From positions 1 to 40,095 of IMG/VR virus record IMGVR_UViG_3300022871_000041: 40,095 nucleotides of DNA; one strand, 5' to 3'. Of this stretch, positions 13,936-33,344 are shown piece by piece (position 1 is the stretch's first letter; every line of letters begins with the position of its first letter). The notes beneath the pieces are model-generated. The model did no database searches and had not been told where the DNA came from. It saw only the letters and a list, made by a program, of their open reading frames with translations. The DNA is from a virus. Made by a program: the position numbers and the translations under genes.

Positions 13936-13939
13936 TTAT

Positions 13940-14011
13940 GGCATGGGGTCTGGGCACCATTTTCGGTTCATATCTGAGGAATGCAGGGCTCGATACCCTG
14001 ACATGCCACCA
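13940..14011 (+). tRNA. tRNA with CAU anticodon (Met or Ile2)
   Basis: Acceptor GGCATG/CATGCC with one mismatch at the seventh pair, encoded ACCA. Anticodon loop TTCATAT gives CAU. The sequence alone cannot tell elongator Met, initiator or lysidine-modified Ile2. T loop CTCGATA is slightly unusual. Confidence 0.75.
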
Positions 14012-14012
14012 T

Positions 14013-14086
14013 GCTGGGTTAGTACAATGGTAGTATATGTGGTTGCCAATCACATGATATGAGTTCAATTCTCATACTCAGCTCCA
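14013..14086 (+). tRNA. tRNA-Gly(GCC)
   Basis: Acceptor GCTGGGT/ACTCAGC with encoded TCCA. Anticodon loop TTGCCAA gives GCC. Its 3' end begins a 107-base sequence repeated exactly after tRNA-Gly(UCC) at 27271. Confidence 0.9.
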
Positions 14087-14187
14087 AAATCTTATTTTTA
14101 TCTTGACATGATATAATTTTTATGATACCTTATAAACAATGAGGGTGGTCATACAAAGGAATATTGCATTAGAACAAAAAGAATTTA
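14081..14187 (+). repeat. 107-bp exact direct repeat, copy 1
   Basis: Identical to 27271-27377. It contains the tail of a tRNA-Gly, a full promoter and a short frame starting MRVVIQRNIALEQKEF. Both copies follow a tRNA-Gly gene. Confidence 0.9.
14103..14131 (+). promoter_or_regulatory. Extended -10 promoter
   Basis: TTGACA, 17-base spacer ending TATGA, TACCTT. Lies within the 107-bp repeat and reads toward the SLOG-like gene. Confidence 0.7.
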
Positions 14188-16431: not shown

Positions 16432-16507
16432 AGGGGATAATGGCAAGATGTCGACTGCGATTTGGATTCGTGGTGTGGCCAGTTTGATTCTGGCATCCCC
16501 CCTACCA
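16432..16507 (+). tRNA. tRNA-Pro(UGG), irregular acceptor stem
   Basis: Anticodon loop TTTGGAT gives UGG and the T arm GCCAG-TTTGATT-CTGGC is good. The 5' strand AGGGGAT faces ATCCCCCC followed by TACCA, so two extra C residues bulge or A1 is unpaired. It may be degenerate; an intact tRNA-Pro(UGG) lies at 17552. Confidence 0.6.
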
Positions 16508-19187: not shown

Positions 19188-20599
19188 ATGAATAAAGTAA
19201 TATCAACAGAAAAAATACCAATAAAATTATGGTTGGATGACATTGAAGATGGTGCTTTAGACCAAGCAAAAAATCTTGCCAATCTTCCTTTTGCATTTAA
19301 ACATATCGCTATAATGCCAGATTCGCATCAAGGATACGGTATGCCTATAGGCGGTGTTATGGCAACTAAAGATGTTGTTGTGCCAAATGCAGTAGGGGTT
19401 AATTAATCGGCCCCTGTAAAACTCGCTCAATTGCTGGAACTCTAAGTCAGAAATGATAAGACAATCAGCAGCCAGAGTTCATGGAAACATGTTCAAATGG
19501 TTCAGAGACTTGTATCATATTAATAGGTAAGGATACAGATTATTTAAAAATAATAATACGGCGAGCCTTGAATAGATGCTATTACATCAATGATTCAAGT
19601 GATGGTATAGTCCATTCCATATAGAAATATATGAATTAATGTGATATTGGATGCGGCATGTGTGCTTTAAGAACATCATTGACTTATATAAATCATGAAG
19701 ATATTTTAAAAATTATGGGTGGTATGAGAATATCTGTTCCTGTAGGATTTAATCATCAAAATAAAGAACAAGATGAATGGTTAAATGATGTTGATAATGA
19801 AAAACTTTCGGGTTGGTCAGTTATTGAAAATGAATATAATTCATCTTTAAAACAAATTGGAACATTAGGTGGAGGTAATCATTTTATTGAAATACAAAAA
19901 GGTGATGATGGTAGAGTATGGATTATGATACACTCTGGTAGTCGTAACATAGGATATAAGGTTGCTGATCATTACAATAAATTAGCTATTAAATTAAATA
20001 GTGTATGGTGTTCTTCTGTACCTAAAGAGCATCAATTAGCTTTTCTTCCAATTAATTCAGAAGAAGGTCAAAATTATTTAACTGAAATGCGTTGTTGTGT
20101 TGATTTTGCATTAGCTAATAGAAAATTTATGATGAATAGAGTTAAAGAAGCATTTGTTAATATTATAGATGATATAAAATTTGACAACTTTATAAATATA
20201 GCACATAATTATGCTGTTATGGAAAATCATTTTAATACTAATGTAATGATTCACCGTAAAGGAGCTACAAGTGCTCGTTTGGGTGAACAAGGTATTATAC
20301 CAGGCTCACAAGGCACATCAAGTTATATTGTTAGTGGTAAAGGTAATAAAGAAAGTTTTATGTCATGTTCTCATGGAGCTGGTCGTATGATGGGTCGTAA
20401 ACAAGCTCGAAAAATGTTAAATCTTGAAGATGAACAACGTATGTTAGATGATATAGGTGTTATTCATTCTATTAGAAATAAAAAAGATTTAGATGAAGCT
20501 CCAAGTGCATATAAAGATATTTCAGTTGTTATGAAAAATCAAGAAGATCTTGTTGATATAGTGGTTGAACTTAAACCTTTAGCTGTAATAAAAGGATAA
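19188..20599 (+). CDS. rtcB: RtcB RNA ligase, gene interrupted by a group I intron
   Basis: An RNA-splicing ligase that joins 2',3'-cyclic phosphate or 3'-phosphate ends to 5'-OH ends using GTP and Mn. Exon 1 is 19188-19399 and exon 2 is 19642-20599. Joined, they restore the family core VPNAVGVDIGCGMCA and give 389 residues (typical is about 400). Visible active-site parts are DIGCGMC (metal Cys), GGGNHFIE, IHSGSRN, HRKGATSAR and SCSHGAGRMMGR (nucleotide-linked His). AAAGGAGAATATT precedes ATG. Without splicing, exon 1 stops four bases into the intron. With the Rnl2-type ligase at 38915, it gives the phage two RNA repair routes, useful against anticodon nucleases. Confidence 0.92.
19400..19641 (+). 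other. Group I intron in rtcB, no ORF
   Basis: A 242-base insertion between AGGGGT and TGATATTGG of rtcB. The exon end AGGGGTT pairs with GGCCCCT (19409-19415) to form P1 with a U-G pair at the splice site. The intron ends in G. Core-like segments are GCTGGAACTC, AATCAGCAGCC and near the 3' end TGGTATAGTCC, the P7-like motif of phage group I introns. It has no homing endonuclease gene. Confidence 0.85.
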
Positions 20600-20685: not shown

Positions 20686-20982
20686 ATGATAGAATATAGA
20701 AATGATAAAGGTCAGTTACATCGTATAGATGGTCCAGCAGTAAAACAGTTTTATGCACCTTATGATGGTTTTGAAGAATGGTGGTATAATGGTTTAAGAC
20801 ATCGTATAGATGGTCCAGCAATAGAGTCTGATAATAGTAAACATAAAGAATGGTGGTGGATGGGAAAACAACATCGTACAAATGGTCCAGCTGTAGAATA
20901 TAATAATGGTGCTGTAGAATGGTGGATTGATGGTGAACTTTTAACAAAAAAAGAATATCTTGACATAACAATAAATCTATGA
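20686..20982 (+). CDS. MORN-like HR-DGPA repeat protein, copy 1
   Basis: A 98-residue protein with three units of the form W..G..HR.DGPA (HRIDGPAVK, HRIDGPAIE, HRTNGPAVE), each about 25-30 residues. These are MORN-like beta-hairpin repeats. It ends in a degenerate tail (GELLTKKEYLDITINL). The codons of this tail contain the next promoter's -35 (TTGACA at 20960), so coding and promoter overlap. Six paralogues occur downstream. Function unknown; MORN-like repeats usually bind lipid or protein. Confidence 0.75.
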   Translation: MIEYRNDKGQLHRIDGPAVKQFYAPYDGFEEWWYNGLRHRIDGPAIESDNSKHKEWWWMGKQHRTNGPAVEYNNGAVEWWIDGELLTKKEYLDITINL

Positions 20983-21348: not shown

Positions 21349-21701
21349 GGGGGTGAAATGGATTCGATGTGGATAGGGAAATATTAATAACATACCGAGA
21401 AATTCTTGATACTCGTAAAACAAGAAAACTAAAGTAATTGCTGACGATTATAATTACGCTTTAGCGGCATAGCTAACGTCTTGTTAGATTTTTTCCTGTG
21501 AATCTAATAAAGGCGACGACTAACAGGATAGTTAATATTGGTAGTCTGTTCTGATGTTAATGAAACTTTAACAGAATAATCCTTTAGATATTAAGTCTGA
21601 TAATATTTAAATAGATGAAAAACAATATTCAGAATATGTATGTAAAAATTATTAATATGGAATATTTACAGACCGGGGTTCGATACCCCGCACTTCCACC
21701 A
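21349..21701 (+). ncRNA. ssrA: tmRNA (trans-translation RNA), tag ADDYNYALAA
   Basis: A 353-base tmRNA. The tRNA-like ends pair (GGGGGTG at 21349 with CACTTCC), followed by A and encoded CCA. The 5' end has the conserved GGATTCGATG, and the 3' end has T arm CGGGG-TTCGATA-CCCCG. The tag frame resumes at GCT 21440 and reads ADDYNYALAA then TAG (21470-21472) and CTAA, with the typical TACGCTTTAGCGGCA coding for YALAA. It rescues ribosomes on broken mRNAs and marks the products for ClpXP. This is rare in phages. It follows a promoter at 20960 and precedes tRNA-Phe. Confidence 0.93.
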
Positions 21702-21936: not shown

Positions 21937-21951
21937 ATTTTTAACAATATG

Positions 21952-22112
21952 TAATAAATATAATAGTGGGTCAGACCAAAGAAGAGCGGGGAACGATATG
22001 TATAAAGATATAACCGGGAATATGATTTATACTTGGTGGTAGCCAATAACGGAGTTGCAACTCTACATGGATTGCTCAGACATTATTCTCTGACCCATTA
22101 TTATATTTATTA
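21952..22112 (+). ncRNA. Structured RNA candidate closed by a 24-bp stem
   Basis: TAATAAATATAATAG plus TGGGTCAGA at 21952-21975 pairs with TCTGACCCA plus TTATTATATTTATTA at 22089-22112, 24 pairs with one G-T. The inner 113 bases contain GTATAAA/TTTATAC, TTGG/CCAA and the palindrome GAGTTGCAACTC. No ORF fits. A dedicated promoter lies just upstream and a ribosome-binding site follows. Family unknown. Confidence 0.6.
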
Positions 22113-22126
22113 CAAGAAAGGATATT

Positions 22127-22619: not shown

Positions 22620-22695
22620 GTGGCTGGATGCATACTGATACGCAGCGGAGTTGTGGCCTCCGTGCAAAGGGATTTGAGATCCCTCAGCCACACCA
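22620..22695 (+). tRNA. tRNA-His(GUG)
   Basis: Acceptor GTGGCTG/CAGCCAC, encoded ACCA. Anticodon stem CGGAG/CTCCG, loop TTGTGGC gives GUG. A G precedes position 1, but position 73 is A rather than C. Confidence 0.85.
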
Positions 22696-23606: not shown

Positions 23607-23918
23607 ATGAATAAAGAATTGTATTATAAAGATGATGTATTAAAATATAATGAACATGGCTTATTACATTGTATAGATGGACCAGCCATAATATATGCTG
23701 ATGGTTCTAAATTCTGGTATCAACATGGTATGTTACATCGTACAGATGGACCTGCGGTAGAAAGAGCTAATGGTACTATGTTATGGTATAAAGAAGGTGC
23801 ACGACATCGTATAGACGGTCCTGCGGTAGAGTGGATTGCCGGTGATAAAGAATGGTGGGTTATGGGTAAAAGATATATTACAGAAAATATTTATGTTGAC
23901 ACAACTTATTTTTTATGA
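23607..23918 (+). CDS. MORN-like HR-DGPA repeat protein, copy 2
   Basis: A 103-residue protein with four repeat units (HCIDGPAII, HRTDGPAVE, HRIDGPAVE, then WWVMGKRY). A segment of repeats (ERANGTMLWYKEGARHRIDG) is identical in the copy at 26083, showing recent exchange. The final codons hold the TTGACA of the next promoter. Function unknown. Confidence 0.75.
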   Translation: MNKELYYKDDVLKYNEHGLLHCIDGPAIIYADGSKFWYQHGMLHRTDGPAVERANGTMLWYKEGARHRIDGPAVEWIAGDKEWWVMGKRYITENIYVDTTYFL

Positions 23919-24471: not shown

Positions 24472-24482
24472 TTAATACAATT

Positions 24483-24625
24483 ATTGTATTGTGGGGGGTA
24501 CGGACAGCCGAAATTGAAAACTATATAATATTTTTTATATAAATAGCTTTTATATAAGGTATTTGAAGGCCGTATTAATGGAGAAATGTCGACAATGGTT
24601 TTTTCCGCCCCGCCCAGAATACAAT
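24483..24625 (+). ncRNA. Structured RNA candidate
   Basis: Non-coding stretch closed by ATTGTATT (24483-24490) and AATACAAT (24618-24625), then TGGG/CCCA. Inside are TACGG/CCGTA and two AT-rich hairpins (ATATAA/TTATAT and ATATAAA/TTTATAT). The G/C runs stand out in this AT-rich region. No ORF. Class unknown. Confidence 0.5.
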
Positions 24626-24639
24626 AAGAAAGGATAATT

Positions 24640-26082: not shown

Positions 26083-26340
26083 ATGAAGGTATATAGAAAC
26101 GATAAAGGACAATTACATCGTATAGATGGACCTGCGGTAGAAAGAGCTAATGGTACTATGTTATGGTATAAAGAAGGTGCACGACATCGTATAGATGGTC
26201 CAGCTATAGAATATGTATCAGGAACGGTATCATATTGGATTAATGGTAAAAATATTACTAAAAAGGAATTTAAAAAAGAATTTAAAAAACAATCAAAAAA
26301 ATTAAATCCGATAATACCTAAAGAAATGTGGTTAATATGA
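26083..26340 (+). CDS. MORN-like HR-DGPA repeat protein, copy 3
   Basis: An 85-residue protein, MKVYRNDKGQLHRIDGPAVE, with three units and the tail IIPKEMWLI. It shares a stretch of identical DNA with the copy at 23607. GAAGGGATAT precedes ATG. The tail module is the one seen in the 30-36 kb cluster. Confidence 0.75.
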   Translation: MKVYRNDKGQLHRIDGPAVERANGTMLWYKEGARHRIDGPAIEYVSGTVSYWINGKNITKKEFKKEFKKQSKKLNPIIPKEMWLI

Positions 26341-26453: not shown

Positions 26454-26457
26454 TAAT

Positions 26458-26578
26458 GGGGATGAGGTACTATAAGGTACTAAGAAATGTGTAATAGGAT
26501 ACCAGCAATGGCCAATGCTTAATGTTTAGATCACAACTACAACAGGTCATCCTGTAGGTGAAAAACCTGCCATCCCCT
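26458..26578 (+). ncRNA. Structured RNA candidate with a tRNA-like 3' end
   Basis: Closed by GGGGATG (26458-26464) and CATCCCC (26571-26577). The 3' part has a T-arm-like hairpin GTAGG-TGAAAAA-CCTGC directly before the acceptor-like strand, and hairpins CAGG/CCTG and GTAC/GTAC lie upstream. A T-run (TAATTTTTT) follows. It is too long for a tRNA and shows no anticodon arm. Class unknown. Confidence 0.55.
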
Positions 26579-27044: not shown

Positions 27045-27183
27045 AGATAATTTATTTATCCTTACTTGACGCAGCCTATGCAAGATTTTGTAGACTATAT
27101 CCTAAATCCTTTGTTGATGGTATGTTATGTCTAAATAATCAAATAGAATGTTGTTAGTTGTTGACTATTAAAATAAATTATCT
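27045..27183 (+). repeat. 13-bp inverted repeats flanking a start-less small gene
   Basis: AGATAATTTATTT (27045-27057) and AAATAAATTATCT (27171-27183) are perfect complements 113 bases apart. They enclose the frame at 27050-27157, and the left arm overlaps its ribosome-binding site region. Confidence 0.65.
27050..27157 (+). pseudogene. Small conserved-looking frame lacking ATG
   Basis: The frame reads IYLSLLDAAYARFCRLYPKS, then FVDGMLCLNNQIECC to TAG. The LLDAAYARFCRLYP..FVDG pattern resembles a small phage protein family. AGGAG at the right distance precedes ATT, not ATG, so the start is either a rare ATT or mutated. Confidence 0.45.
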
Positions 27184-27202
27184 AATCTATATCAACCACT
27201 AT

Positions 27203-27276
27203 GCGGGATTAGTACAATGGTAGTACATGTGGTTTCCACCCACCAGATATGTGTTCGATTCACATATTCCGCTCCA
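27203..27276 (+). tRNA. tRNA-Gly(UCC)
   Basis: Acceptor GCGGGAT/ATTCCGC, encoded TCCA. Anticodon loop TTTCCAC gives UCC. It is followed by the second copy of the 107-bp repeat. Confidence 0.9.
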
Positions 27277-27377
27277 AAATCTTATTTTTATCTTGACATG
27301 ATATAATTTTTATGATACCTTATAAACAATGAGGGTGGTCATACAAAGGAATATTGCATTAGAACAAAAAGAATTTA
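27271..27377 (+). repeat. 107-bp exact direct repeat, copy 2
   Basis: Identical to 14081-14187, including a promoter and the start of a short frame. Sequence departs right after GAATTTA. Confidence 0.9.
27293..27321 (+). promoter_or_regulatory. Extended -10 promoter (repeat copy 2)
   Basis: TTGACA, 17-base spacer ending TATGA, TACCTT. It reads toward tRNA-Glu and the structured RNA at 27499. Confidence 0.7.
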
Positions 27378-27404: not shown

Positions 27405-27481
27405 GAAGCTGTGAGCCAGCGGTCAAAGCTACAAGACCTTCAATCTTGTTATCGGGGGTTCAAATCCCCCCAGCTTCACCA
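27405..27481 (+). tRNA. tRNA-Glu(UUC) with C33
   Basis: Perfect acceptor GAAGCTG/CAGCTTC, encoded ACCA. Anticodon stem CAAGA/TCTTG, loop CCTTCAA gives UUC, with C at position 33. Confidence 0.85.
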
Positions 27482-27498
27482 AATATATTTATTATATT

Positions 27499-27723
27499 GT
27501 TGTGATGGTGGAATGATAGATTTAACAAGTCGCATCGGGCGATAGAGAAATCTTGGTACTGAGATACTTGTTATTAATAGACACTATTATGGTGATTAGT
27601 TGACTGGGCGCTGCTCCCAGATATCCATATGTCAATATAAGTTGTGTGCGAAGGGGCAGATGATACGCTGACACACATTTGAAAAATCAACTAAATTTGT
27701 AGGTTTAAATCCTACTCACAACA
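27499..27723 (+). ncRNA. 225-base structured RNA with tRNA-like ends
   Basis: Ends GTTGTGA (27499-27505) and TCACAAC form a perfect 7-bp acceptor-like stem. A T-arm GTAGG-TTTAAAT-CCTAC precedes the 3' strand, and a Leu-like D-arm (TGGTGGAATGATAGA) follows the 5' strand. The middle has AACAAGT/ACTTGTT, AATAG/CTATT, TTAGTTGA/TCAACTAA, CTGGG/CCCAG and GTGTG/CACAC stems. No anticodon arm of normal size exists. It may be a tRNA with a large insertion, a Y-RNA-like molecule or a new class. Confidence 0.6.
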
Positions 27724-27728
27724 ATTAT

Positions 27729-27802
27729 GGCCCATTGGTGTAATGGTAACATGAATGATTGTCTATCATTTGCTATCGGTTCGACTCCGTTATGGGTCGC
27801 TC
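27729..27802 (+). tRNA. tRNA-Asp(GUC)
   Basis: Acceptor GGCCCAT/ATGGGTC, G73 as in Asp, then CTC instead of CCA. Anticodon stem AATGA/TCATT, loop TTGTCTA gives GUC. Confidence 0.88.
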
Positions 27803-28971: not shown

Positions 28972-29817
28972 ATGTTAAATGTTCTTGTTACTGGTTCAAA
29001 GGGATTTCTTGGTAAACATATATGTGAAGAATTAGAAAAACGTGATATAGAAGTTATAGAATATGATATCATAGATGGTAATGATATATGTAATATTGAT
29101 AATCTTATATCTCATATATCGCCATGTGATTATGTTATTCATACAGCTGCTCAAGCTGATATTGACGAATCATATCATCATCCTTCCAAAACGATGCAAA
29201 TTAATGTAGTAGGGACTACCAAATGTCTTGAAGCATCATCTTTCTGTTTTAAAAATTATAGACTTAAAAAATTTATCTTTGCCAGCTCAGTATATGTAGG
29301 TGGTAACAAAGGTTCTTTTTATAAAGTATCTAAAAAAGTGTGTGAAGAATTATGCCATGAAATGTATCAAAGTAAATGGTTGCCATATGTTAATATTAGG
29401 TATGGTAGTCTTTATGGTCCGGGTGCTAATTATTGGAATAGAATTAATGATATATGTGAAAAGTTATTAGATAAAAAAGAATATGAATATAATGGTTCAC
29501 CTGATGAAAAAAGAGAATATATTCATGTACAAGATGCTGCAAAGACAACGGTTGATATAATGTTAAATAATAATTTTGATAATAAAAATGTTCTTGTTAC
29601 AGGAAATGAAAGTAAGACTGTTAAAGAATTATTTGATTTGTTTACAGAAATATTAGGATATGATATAGTAGTTAAATATAAATCAAATGATACAAGATAT
29701 ACTCATTATAAAACAACACCTTATGCATTTGATAATAATAAAGTTATAAGACTTAATATGTCTGAATACACAGAATTAGCAAACGGCTTAATACAATGTT
29801 TGGAAAATGTTAAATGA
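28972..29817 (+). CDS. NAD-dependent sugar epimerase/dehydratase (SDR)
   Basis: A 281-residue extended SDR. N-terminal VLVTGSKGFLGKHI is the GxxGxxG dinucleotide site; YVIHTAAQADIDES is the typical sugar-epimerase segment; FASSVYV supplies the active-site Ser region and FYKVSK the YxxxK pair. RYGSLYGPG follows. It likely acts on a nucleotide sugar. Its TGA stop overlaps the next ATG. Confidence 0.85.
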   Translation: MLNVLVTGSKGFLGKHICEELEKRDIEVIEYDIIDGNDICNIDNLISHISPCDYVIHTAAQADIDESYHHPSKTMQINVVGTTKCLEASSFCFKNYRLKKFIFASSVYVGGNKGSFYKVSKKVCEELCHEMYQSKWLPYVNIRYGSLYGPGANYWNRINDICEKLLDKKEYEYNGSPDEKREYIHVQDAAKTTVDIMLNNNFDNKNVLVTGNESKTVKELFDLFTEILGYDIVVKYKSNDTRYTHYKTTPYAFDNNKVIRLNMSEYTELANGLIQCLENVK

Positions 29818-30194
29818 TGGAATATAAAAATGAAAAAGGGCAATATCATAGAGAAGATGGTCCTGCTGTAGAATATACAGATGGTACTAAATTTTGGTAT
29901 ATTAAAGGTATGTTACATCGTGAAGATGGTCCAGCAATAGAAAGGGCAAATGGTACTAAAAAATGGTATAAAAATGATATTAGACATCGTACAGATGGTC
30001 CTGCTGTAGAATGGGCAGATGGGACTAAAGAATGGTATATTAAAGGTATGTTACATCGTGAAGATGGTCCAGCAATAGAAAGGGCAAATGGTATTAAAGA
30101 ATGGTTTATAAATGGTGAAGAAATAACAGAACATGAATTTAATGACAAAAGATTAAAATCAATGTTAATACCACCAGAAATGTGGGTGATATAA
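29814..30194 (+). CDS. MORN-like HR-DGPA repeat protein, copy 4
   Basis: A 126-residue protein, the longest of its family here, with HREDGPAVE, HREDGPAIE, HRTDGPAVE, HREDGPAIE units and the tail GEEITEHEFNDKRLKSMLIPPEMWVI. Units two and four are almost identical in DNA, showing internal duplication. Starts in a 4-base ATGA overlap with the SDR gene and ends in TAATG shared with the next gene. Confidence 0.8.
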   Translation: MMEYKNEKGQYHREDGPAVEYTDGTKFWYIKGMLHREDGPAIERANGTKKWYKNDIRHRTDGPAVEWADGTKEWYIKGMLHREDGPAIERANGIKEWFINGEEITEHEFNDKRLKSMLIPPEMWVI

Positions 30195-33029: not shown

Positions 33030-33344
33030 ATGGATAAATTTTATAAAAATGAAAAAGGGCAATATCATAGGACAGATGGTCCAGCTATAATATATTCTAA
33101 TGGTGATATGTCATGGTATAAAGAGGATATGTTACATCGTACAGATGGTCCAGCAATAGAATGGATTAGTGGTACTATGTCATGGTGGTATATGGGTATA
33201 CGACATCGTATAGATGGACCAGCAATAGAATGGGTAGATGGTATTAAAGAATGGTATATAGAAGGTAAACAATATACAGAACAAGAATTTAATGACCAAA
33301 AATTAAAGCAACAGTTGATACCACCAGAAATGTGGGAGATATAA
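33030..33344 (+). CDS. MORN-like HR-DGPA repeat protein, copy 5
   Basis: A 104-residue protein, FYKNEKGQYHRTDGPAIIY, with three further units and the tail GKQYTEQEFNDQKLKQQLIPPEMWEI. Its end provides GGGAGATATAATG, the ribosome-binding site and start of the next gene. Confidence 0.78.
   Translation: MDKFYKNEKGQYHRTDGPAIIYSNGDMSWYKEDMLHRTDGPAIEWISGTMSWWYMGIRHRIDGPAIEWVDGIKEWYIEGKQYTEQEFNDQKLKQQLIPPEMWEI

Follow-up and report, generated by a model that had tools for sequence, protein, structure and literature searches.

A candidate tRNA-like RNA without an anticodon arm, comparable in build to T4 RNA C, in the tRNA array of an environmental phage

RNA C and RNA D are small stable RNAs from the tRNA cluster of bacteriophage T4; both are late RNAs with a function listed as unknown (PMC9697503; PMC3014915). 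Aligned RNA C sequences from seven phages yield a consensus that runs from an acceptor-like stem through a long arm and a second hairpin to a T arm and the acceptor again, with 93% of the alignment cells paired. Two-sided changes are seen in 16 of 47 pairs, acceptor and T-stem pairs among them, and none of 500 shuffles scored as high; in Yersinia phage fHe-Yen9-01 the acceptor comprises the full 7 bp. A related arrangement is known from the tRNA-like domain of tmRNA, which consists of an acceptor and a T arm, a D loop without D stem and a long helix that replaces the anticodon arm. For bacterial Y RNAs of the YrlA type, a decoy- or docking-type role of the tRNA-like domain has been suggested (PMC7790460), and GOLLD and ROOL are structured phage RNAs near tRNA arrays with unknown function (PMC12286853).

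The window analysed here, a virus record of 40,095 bases from IMG/VR, belongs, judging from its proteins, to an environmental T4-like phage distantly related to T4: the large terminase is ~35% identical to cyanophage terminases, and the PrkA-type kinase has IMG/VR relatives at 60-70% identity. Its tRNA array (12.4-27.9 kb) comprises a full tmRNA and 27 tRNAs called by ARAGORN; three further tRNA-like genes were overlooked by the program, one Met-like (CAT, 13939-14012), a second Pro-like (TGG, about 16432-16503) and one His-like (GTG, 22620-22694), the latter two with an A19/U56 elbow, which brings the array to about 30 tRNAs plus the tmRNA. The candidate RNA, whose coordinates were correctly given by the first-pass annotation, fills the spacer between two tRNA genes (Table 1), in which we found no credible reading frame. 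The G+C content of its body (0.41; window 0.28, tRNAs of the array 0.45) is ncRNA-like and far above background. The duplicated promoter noted upstream is real, as positions 14006-14187 and 27196-27377 are two copies, 92% identical, of a 182-nt block with a tRNA-Gly and a TTGACA/TATGAT-like promoter; the promoter-like repeat closest to the candidate lies inside this duplication (D6) and is one of seven copies in the array (family D3).

Table 1. Candidate RNA, its parts and its neighbours (positions in the window).
Feature	Position	Strand	Description
Promoter-like repeat	27291-27330	+	TCTTGACAT...TATGATACC; upstream of tRNA-Glu, candidate RNA, tRNA-Asp and tRNA-Ser
tRNA-Glu	27405-27481	+	ARAGORN, Rfam; 17 nt upstream of candidate RNA
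Candidate RNA	27499-27723	+	225 nt; flush between tRNA-Glu and tRNA-Asp genes
Closing helix, 5' strand	27496-27505	+	perfect pairing with 27716-27725; GTTGTGA at 27499-27505 is the 7-bp acceptor strand
D-loop-like segment	27506-27523	+	TGGTGGAATGATAGATTT; Leu-like, no D stem; G18 = 27515, A19 = 27516
Arm 1, in anticodon-arm place	27524-27572	+	stem AACAAGT/ACTTGTT (27524-27530/27566-27572), pair probability 0.93-0.98
Arm 2, in class II variable-arm place	27596-27694	+	stem TTAGTTGA/TCAACTAA (27596-27603/27687-27694), predicted probability ~0.6
Hairpin within arm 2	27604-27620	+	CTGGG-CGCTGCT-CCCAG; 5 bp/7 nt, pair probability ~0.9
Second hairpin within arm 2	27630-27673	+	closed by TGTCA/TGACA
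T arm	27699-27715	+	GTAGG-TTTAAAT-CCTAC; U55 = 27705, U56 = 27706; abuts 3' acceptor strand as in tRNA
Closing helix, 3' strand	27716-27725	+	acceptor part TCACAAC at 27716-27722; A27723 as discriminator
tRNA-Asp	27729-27800	+	ARAGORN, Rfam; immediately downstream of candidate RNA

Both ends of the candidate resemble those of a tRNA. The perfect 7-bp closing stem reported at first pass (GTTGTGA/TCACAAC) is present and is in fact contained in a perfect 10-bp helix, with a predicted pair probability of ~1 at its centre. The T arm said to frame the molecule is likewise perfect and adjacent to the acceptor, with a 5-bp Watson-Crick stem, a T-loop score of 6/6 and a pair probability of 0.91. Acceptor and neighbouring T arm thus follow canonical tRNA (RF00005), with the acceptor extended to 10 bp; CCA is not encoded at the 3' end. 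A tight scan for such ends (5-bp Watson-Crick T stem with G53-C61, 6/6 T-loop match, perfect 7-bp acceptor, span of 100-420) returned a single locus in the window, the candidate, while dinucleotide shuffles predict 0.0025 per 40-kb strand; the 10-bp version was found in 0 of 400 shuffles. The candidate was also the only locus found in a second scan with other settings and the ARAGORN tRNAs masked, where 0.02 were expected. A looser scan was not significant by itself, with 1.5 hits per shuffle (~1.5 per 40 kb by chance), and global folding of the candidate is modestly more stable than that of shuffles (z = -1.47; 16 of 200 as stable). Since loose ends and folding energy are unremarkable, the case rests on the ends as defined by the tight scan, the position, the composition and the elbow.

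At the tRNA elbow, the D loop contacts the T loop through a G19-C56 pair. The D loop of the candidate, AATGATAG, is the usual one of the array, AATGGTAG, with G19 changed to A (base 19 being placed by hand from the D-loop motif), and this change is matched in the T loop, where C56 is replaced by U. U56 is found in four tRNA-like genes of the array, namely tRNA-Tyr, the His-like gene, the second Pro-like gene and the candidate, and all four have GA (A19), whereas the C56 genes of the array keep G19, as GG or, in one tRNA-Lys, as AG. Since A19/U56 recurs in the three other genes and the C56 genes keep G19, the contact between D and T loop in the candidate appears to be preserved through a compensatory A19-U56 pair. 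The Leu-like D arm of the first-pass annotation stands as far as the loop is concerned; a D stem is missing, as GTG and TTT do not pair.

The long stems described for the body, AACAAGT/ACTTGTT and TTAGTTGA/TCAACTAA, were recovered by prediction (~0.98 and ~0.6), together with CTGGG/CCCAG (~0.9). The loop of arm 1 comprises 35 nt with weak internal pairing and no anticodon, and the lack of a normal anticodon arm is borne out. The fold that contains all arms is the MEA structure, which lies 0.4 kcal/mol above the MFE. In this predicted fold, the helices follow one another as in a class II tRNA, with large arms in place of the anticodon and variable arms.

Among the described systems, T4 RNA C (rnaC, species 1 RNA, 139 nt) comes closest. 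Both molecules have an acceptor-like closing stem directly joined to a T arm, which enclose two non-anticodon arms in the same helix order; both lie among tRNA genes, the candidate between tRNA-Glu and tRNA-Asp, and neither belongs to an Rfam family. The candidate exceeds RNA C in length by 86 nt, and its arm 2 is much larger. Acceptor and arm 1 are separated by a D-loop segment of 18 nt that RNA C lacks, and the closing stem is perfect, whereas most RNA C homologues carry two U-U mismatches there. Furthermore, no similarity of sequence or to the covariance model is detectable: with filters off, the best overlap of the RNA C model R1 (7 homologues) with the candidate scored 8.6 bits, and tRNA-Glu scored 18 bits. 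The candidate thus shares the build of T4 RNA C and probably its mode of action; as the covariance model misses it, we class it as an analogue and not as a proven homologue. The proposal of a new phage RNA class therefore holds in part, given that no Rfam family matches but the kind is already known from RNA C.

The tRNA-like domain of tmRNA shares with the candidate the acceptor and T arm, the stemless D loop and a large arm in the anticodon-arm place. A second tmRNA was nevertheless rejected, as the candidate shows no match to the Rfam tmRNA family (RF00023) and no tag-like reading frame, and the phage has its own full tmRNA at 21349-21701. Class II (Leu-type) tRNAs agree with the candidate in acceptor stem, T arm, Leu-like D loop and arm positions; the candidate differs in lacking anticodon arm, D stem and CCA and in having a variable arm of near 100 nt. 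GOLLD and ROOL are similar as structured phage RNAs close to tRNA genes, yet they are far larger, and the candidate has no Rfam match.

Homologues of the candidate were found neither by blastn among phages nor by exact matching of 24-mers and 19-mers to viral contigs. The adjoining proteins (a dehydrogenase and an epimerase) led to no relatives, and a scan with the metallophosphatase returned nothing but contigs of the same virus, which stop short of the candidate. Relatives of the phage were reached through PrkA, and the tRNA arrays of four of them were read, with no homologue of the candidate among them. Kindred designs do occur in these arrays: that of relative G003 carries a 53-nt element made of a 10-bp closing helix and a T arm with almost no body (L086 5479-5531), and that of relative G030 an RNA of 126 nt (L087 10199-10324) that has an acceptor, CCA and a T arm with most of its pairs, yet does not fold as a tRNA and is not recognised as one. 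Acceptor-plus-CCA ends, when counted alone, were no better than chance in most arrays. A pair of neighbouring tRNA-like genes at L086 8635-8800 ends in CCA but has odd T loops (ATAAACA, GGCAGCA) and lacks a normal anticodon loop. YrlA-like RNAs with a permuted tRNA and a long closing stem occur in G009 (L084 17738-17880; 23.3 bits, E 0.006) and G030 (L087 10037-10188; 37.4 bits, E 1e-6), both scores lying under the Rfam gathering score of 69. The first of these has its closing arms in common with L084 16066-16146 (GTAGCGTAGTGAAGAGTTACTTCG ... CTCTTT); inside these arms lies a permuted tRNA in one case and a short hairpin in the other, which resembles an exchange of bodies.

We consider the candidate to be a stable, non-decoding tRNA-like RNA of the tRNA operon, with an RNA C-like build and tRNA-type processing, and assign to this reading a rough probability of 0.62. 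The sequence argues for it by the tRNA-type ends and their improbability, the place between tRNA genes, the A19/U56 compensation, the missing anticodon and the lack of a known family. Its acceptor stem, T arm and D/T-loop elbow would form the upper half of a tRNA; the RNA is probably excised and stabilised in the manner of tRNAs but cannot decode codons. Most likely, it would be co-transcribed with tRNA-Glu, tRNA-Asp and tRNA-Ser. Since RNase P and the 3'-end enzymes recognise the acceptor/T-arm minihelix, its 5' end would be trimmed by RNase P and its 3' end by tRNA 3'-processing nucleases, followed by CCA addition, and this tRNA-type maturation would make the RNA stable. The mature RNA would then most likely act in trans via its arms. 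More speculatively, it may serve as a decoy or docking platform against tRNA-cleaving nucleases, a suggestion based on the analogy with the YrlA tRNA-like domain (PMC7790460) and on the RtcB (PF01139) and T4 Rnl2-type ligase encoded by the phage.

The same features can be read as those of a decaying tRNA-Leu-like gene, that is, a class II tRNA swollen by insertions, still transcribed and functionless. This would agree with a Leu-like D region that has lost its stem, with the missing anticodon and with the failure to find a homologue elsewhere, whereas decay would not be expected to spare a perfect closing helix of 10 bp, an equally perfect T stem of 5 bp and the matched A19/U56 change, and the G+C of the body is that of structured RNAs, far over background. 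We thus regard decay as unlikely. It is plausible that the candidate arose in evolution from a Leu-like tRNA of class II whose arms expanded.

The first-pass annotation had also offered a tRNA with a large insertion, which, read as a spliced tRNA, did not hold. A canonical tRNA (RF00005) is rejected, as the D stem and the 5-bp/7-nt anticodon arm are both missing, and ARAGORN does not call the candidate, even with introns of up to 300 nt. A tRNA from which one or two large introns are removed, the exons being closed for example by the phage RtcB and Rnl2-type ligases, would suit a phage that encodes both enzymes and tolerates a group I intron in its rtcB. Yet cutting out a single segment yields a tRNA no better than it does in shuffled bodies: weak tRNA calls resulted from 10 of 2507 single excisions, while 12 shuffled bodies gave 2-252. 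Apparent group I motifs in the body are unsupported, as a permissive local Rfam scan gave no group I (RF00028) match in the region. Altogether, splicing appears quite improbable. More generally, the candidate matched no Rfam family in the whole-window scan or the permissive local scan; RF00005 stayed below threshold, with 13.2 bits against a cut-off of 29 and the wrong 5' strand in use. This negative result has some weight, since the same type of scan detects the rtcB intron that the window-wide one misses.

The proposal of a Y-RNA-like molecule, Ro-binding, tRNA-like and tied to RNA repair, was reasonable, since relatives encode Ro/TROVE proteins (G009, G003 and G002) and YrlA-like permuted-tRNA RNAs in their arrays. 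Bacterial Y RNAs (YrlA, RF02553) resemble the candidate in joining a tRNA-like module to non-tRNA arms, and RNA-repair genes, rtcB among them, are present in its phage. For YrlA-type RNAs, alignments of the relatives' RNAs show the T half ahead of the D half and a loop that closes the acceptor stem; the candidate, in contrast, is unpermuted, with the D loop at the 5' end, the T arm at the 3' end and tRNA ends that are the RNA ends. It gives no YrlA match at E up to 10 and lacks the Ro-binding motif GNCGAAN0-1G, and no Ro/TROVE gene was found in the 40 kb of the window. Hence, we did not retain the proposal, and a Y RNA seems very improbable. Least credible of all is a chance arrangement within ordinary spacer, which would fit the unremarkable global fold and the frequency of loosely defined ends but is opposed by the rarity of the tight ends, the flush position between two tRNA genes and the ncRNA-like G+C.

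The RNAs topped by tRNA-like ends differ widely in size, from ~50 nt in G003 and 126 nt in G030 to 139 nt in T4 RNA C and 225 nt in the candidate. A tentative and rather doubtful extension of our main reading is that phage arrays carry modular non-decoding tRNA-like RNAs, in which the tRNA top half (acceptor, T arm, elbow), as a reusable cassette that provides processing and stability, is combined with varied bodies to give decoys or platforms against host tRNA-cleaving defences. If such RNAs did act as decoys, this would account for their presence in phages that have RNA-repair genes and large tRNA arrays. T4 is the best-studied phage, and the role of its stable RNA C is still listed as unknown; with the candidate and the tRNA-topped RNAs of the relatives, what was an oddity of T4 may become a recurring design with a testable structural definition.

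Further elements were noted in the window. The rtcB gene (19189-20599) holds a group I intron at about 19406-19645 (RF00028, 66.9 bits, cut-off 50), which sits between the codons of NAVGV and DIGCGM, a conserved motif, and was missed by the whole-window Rfam scan. Just downstream of a copy of the array promoter repeat, a 165-nt element (21950-22114) is closed by a nearly perfect inverted repeat of 26 bp and is, by prediction, a structured RNA of no assigned kind. Three spacer elements are likewise candidate structured RNAs, namely 24481-24627 with a 10-bp closing helix, 26457-26577 with a GGGGATG/CATCCCC closing helix and an adjacent 5-bp/7-nt hairpin, and 27045-27183 with a 13-bp closing helix. 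Finally, a family of small proteins with HRIDGPAVE-type repeats is encoded in and beyond the array (20686-20982, 23607-23918, 26083-26340, 29814-30194 and 33030-33344).
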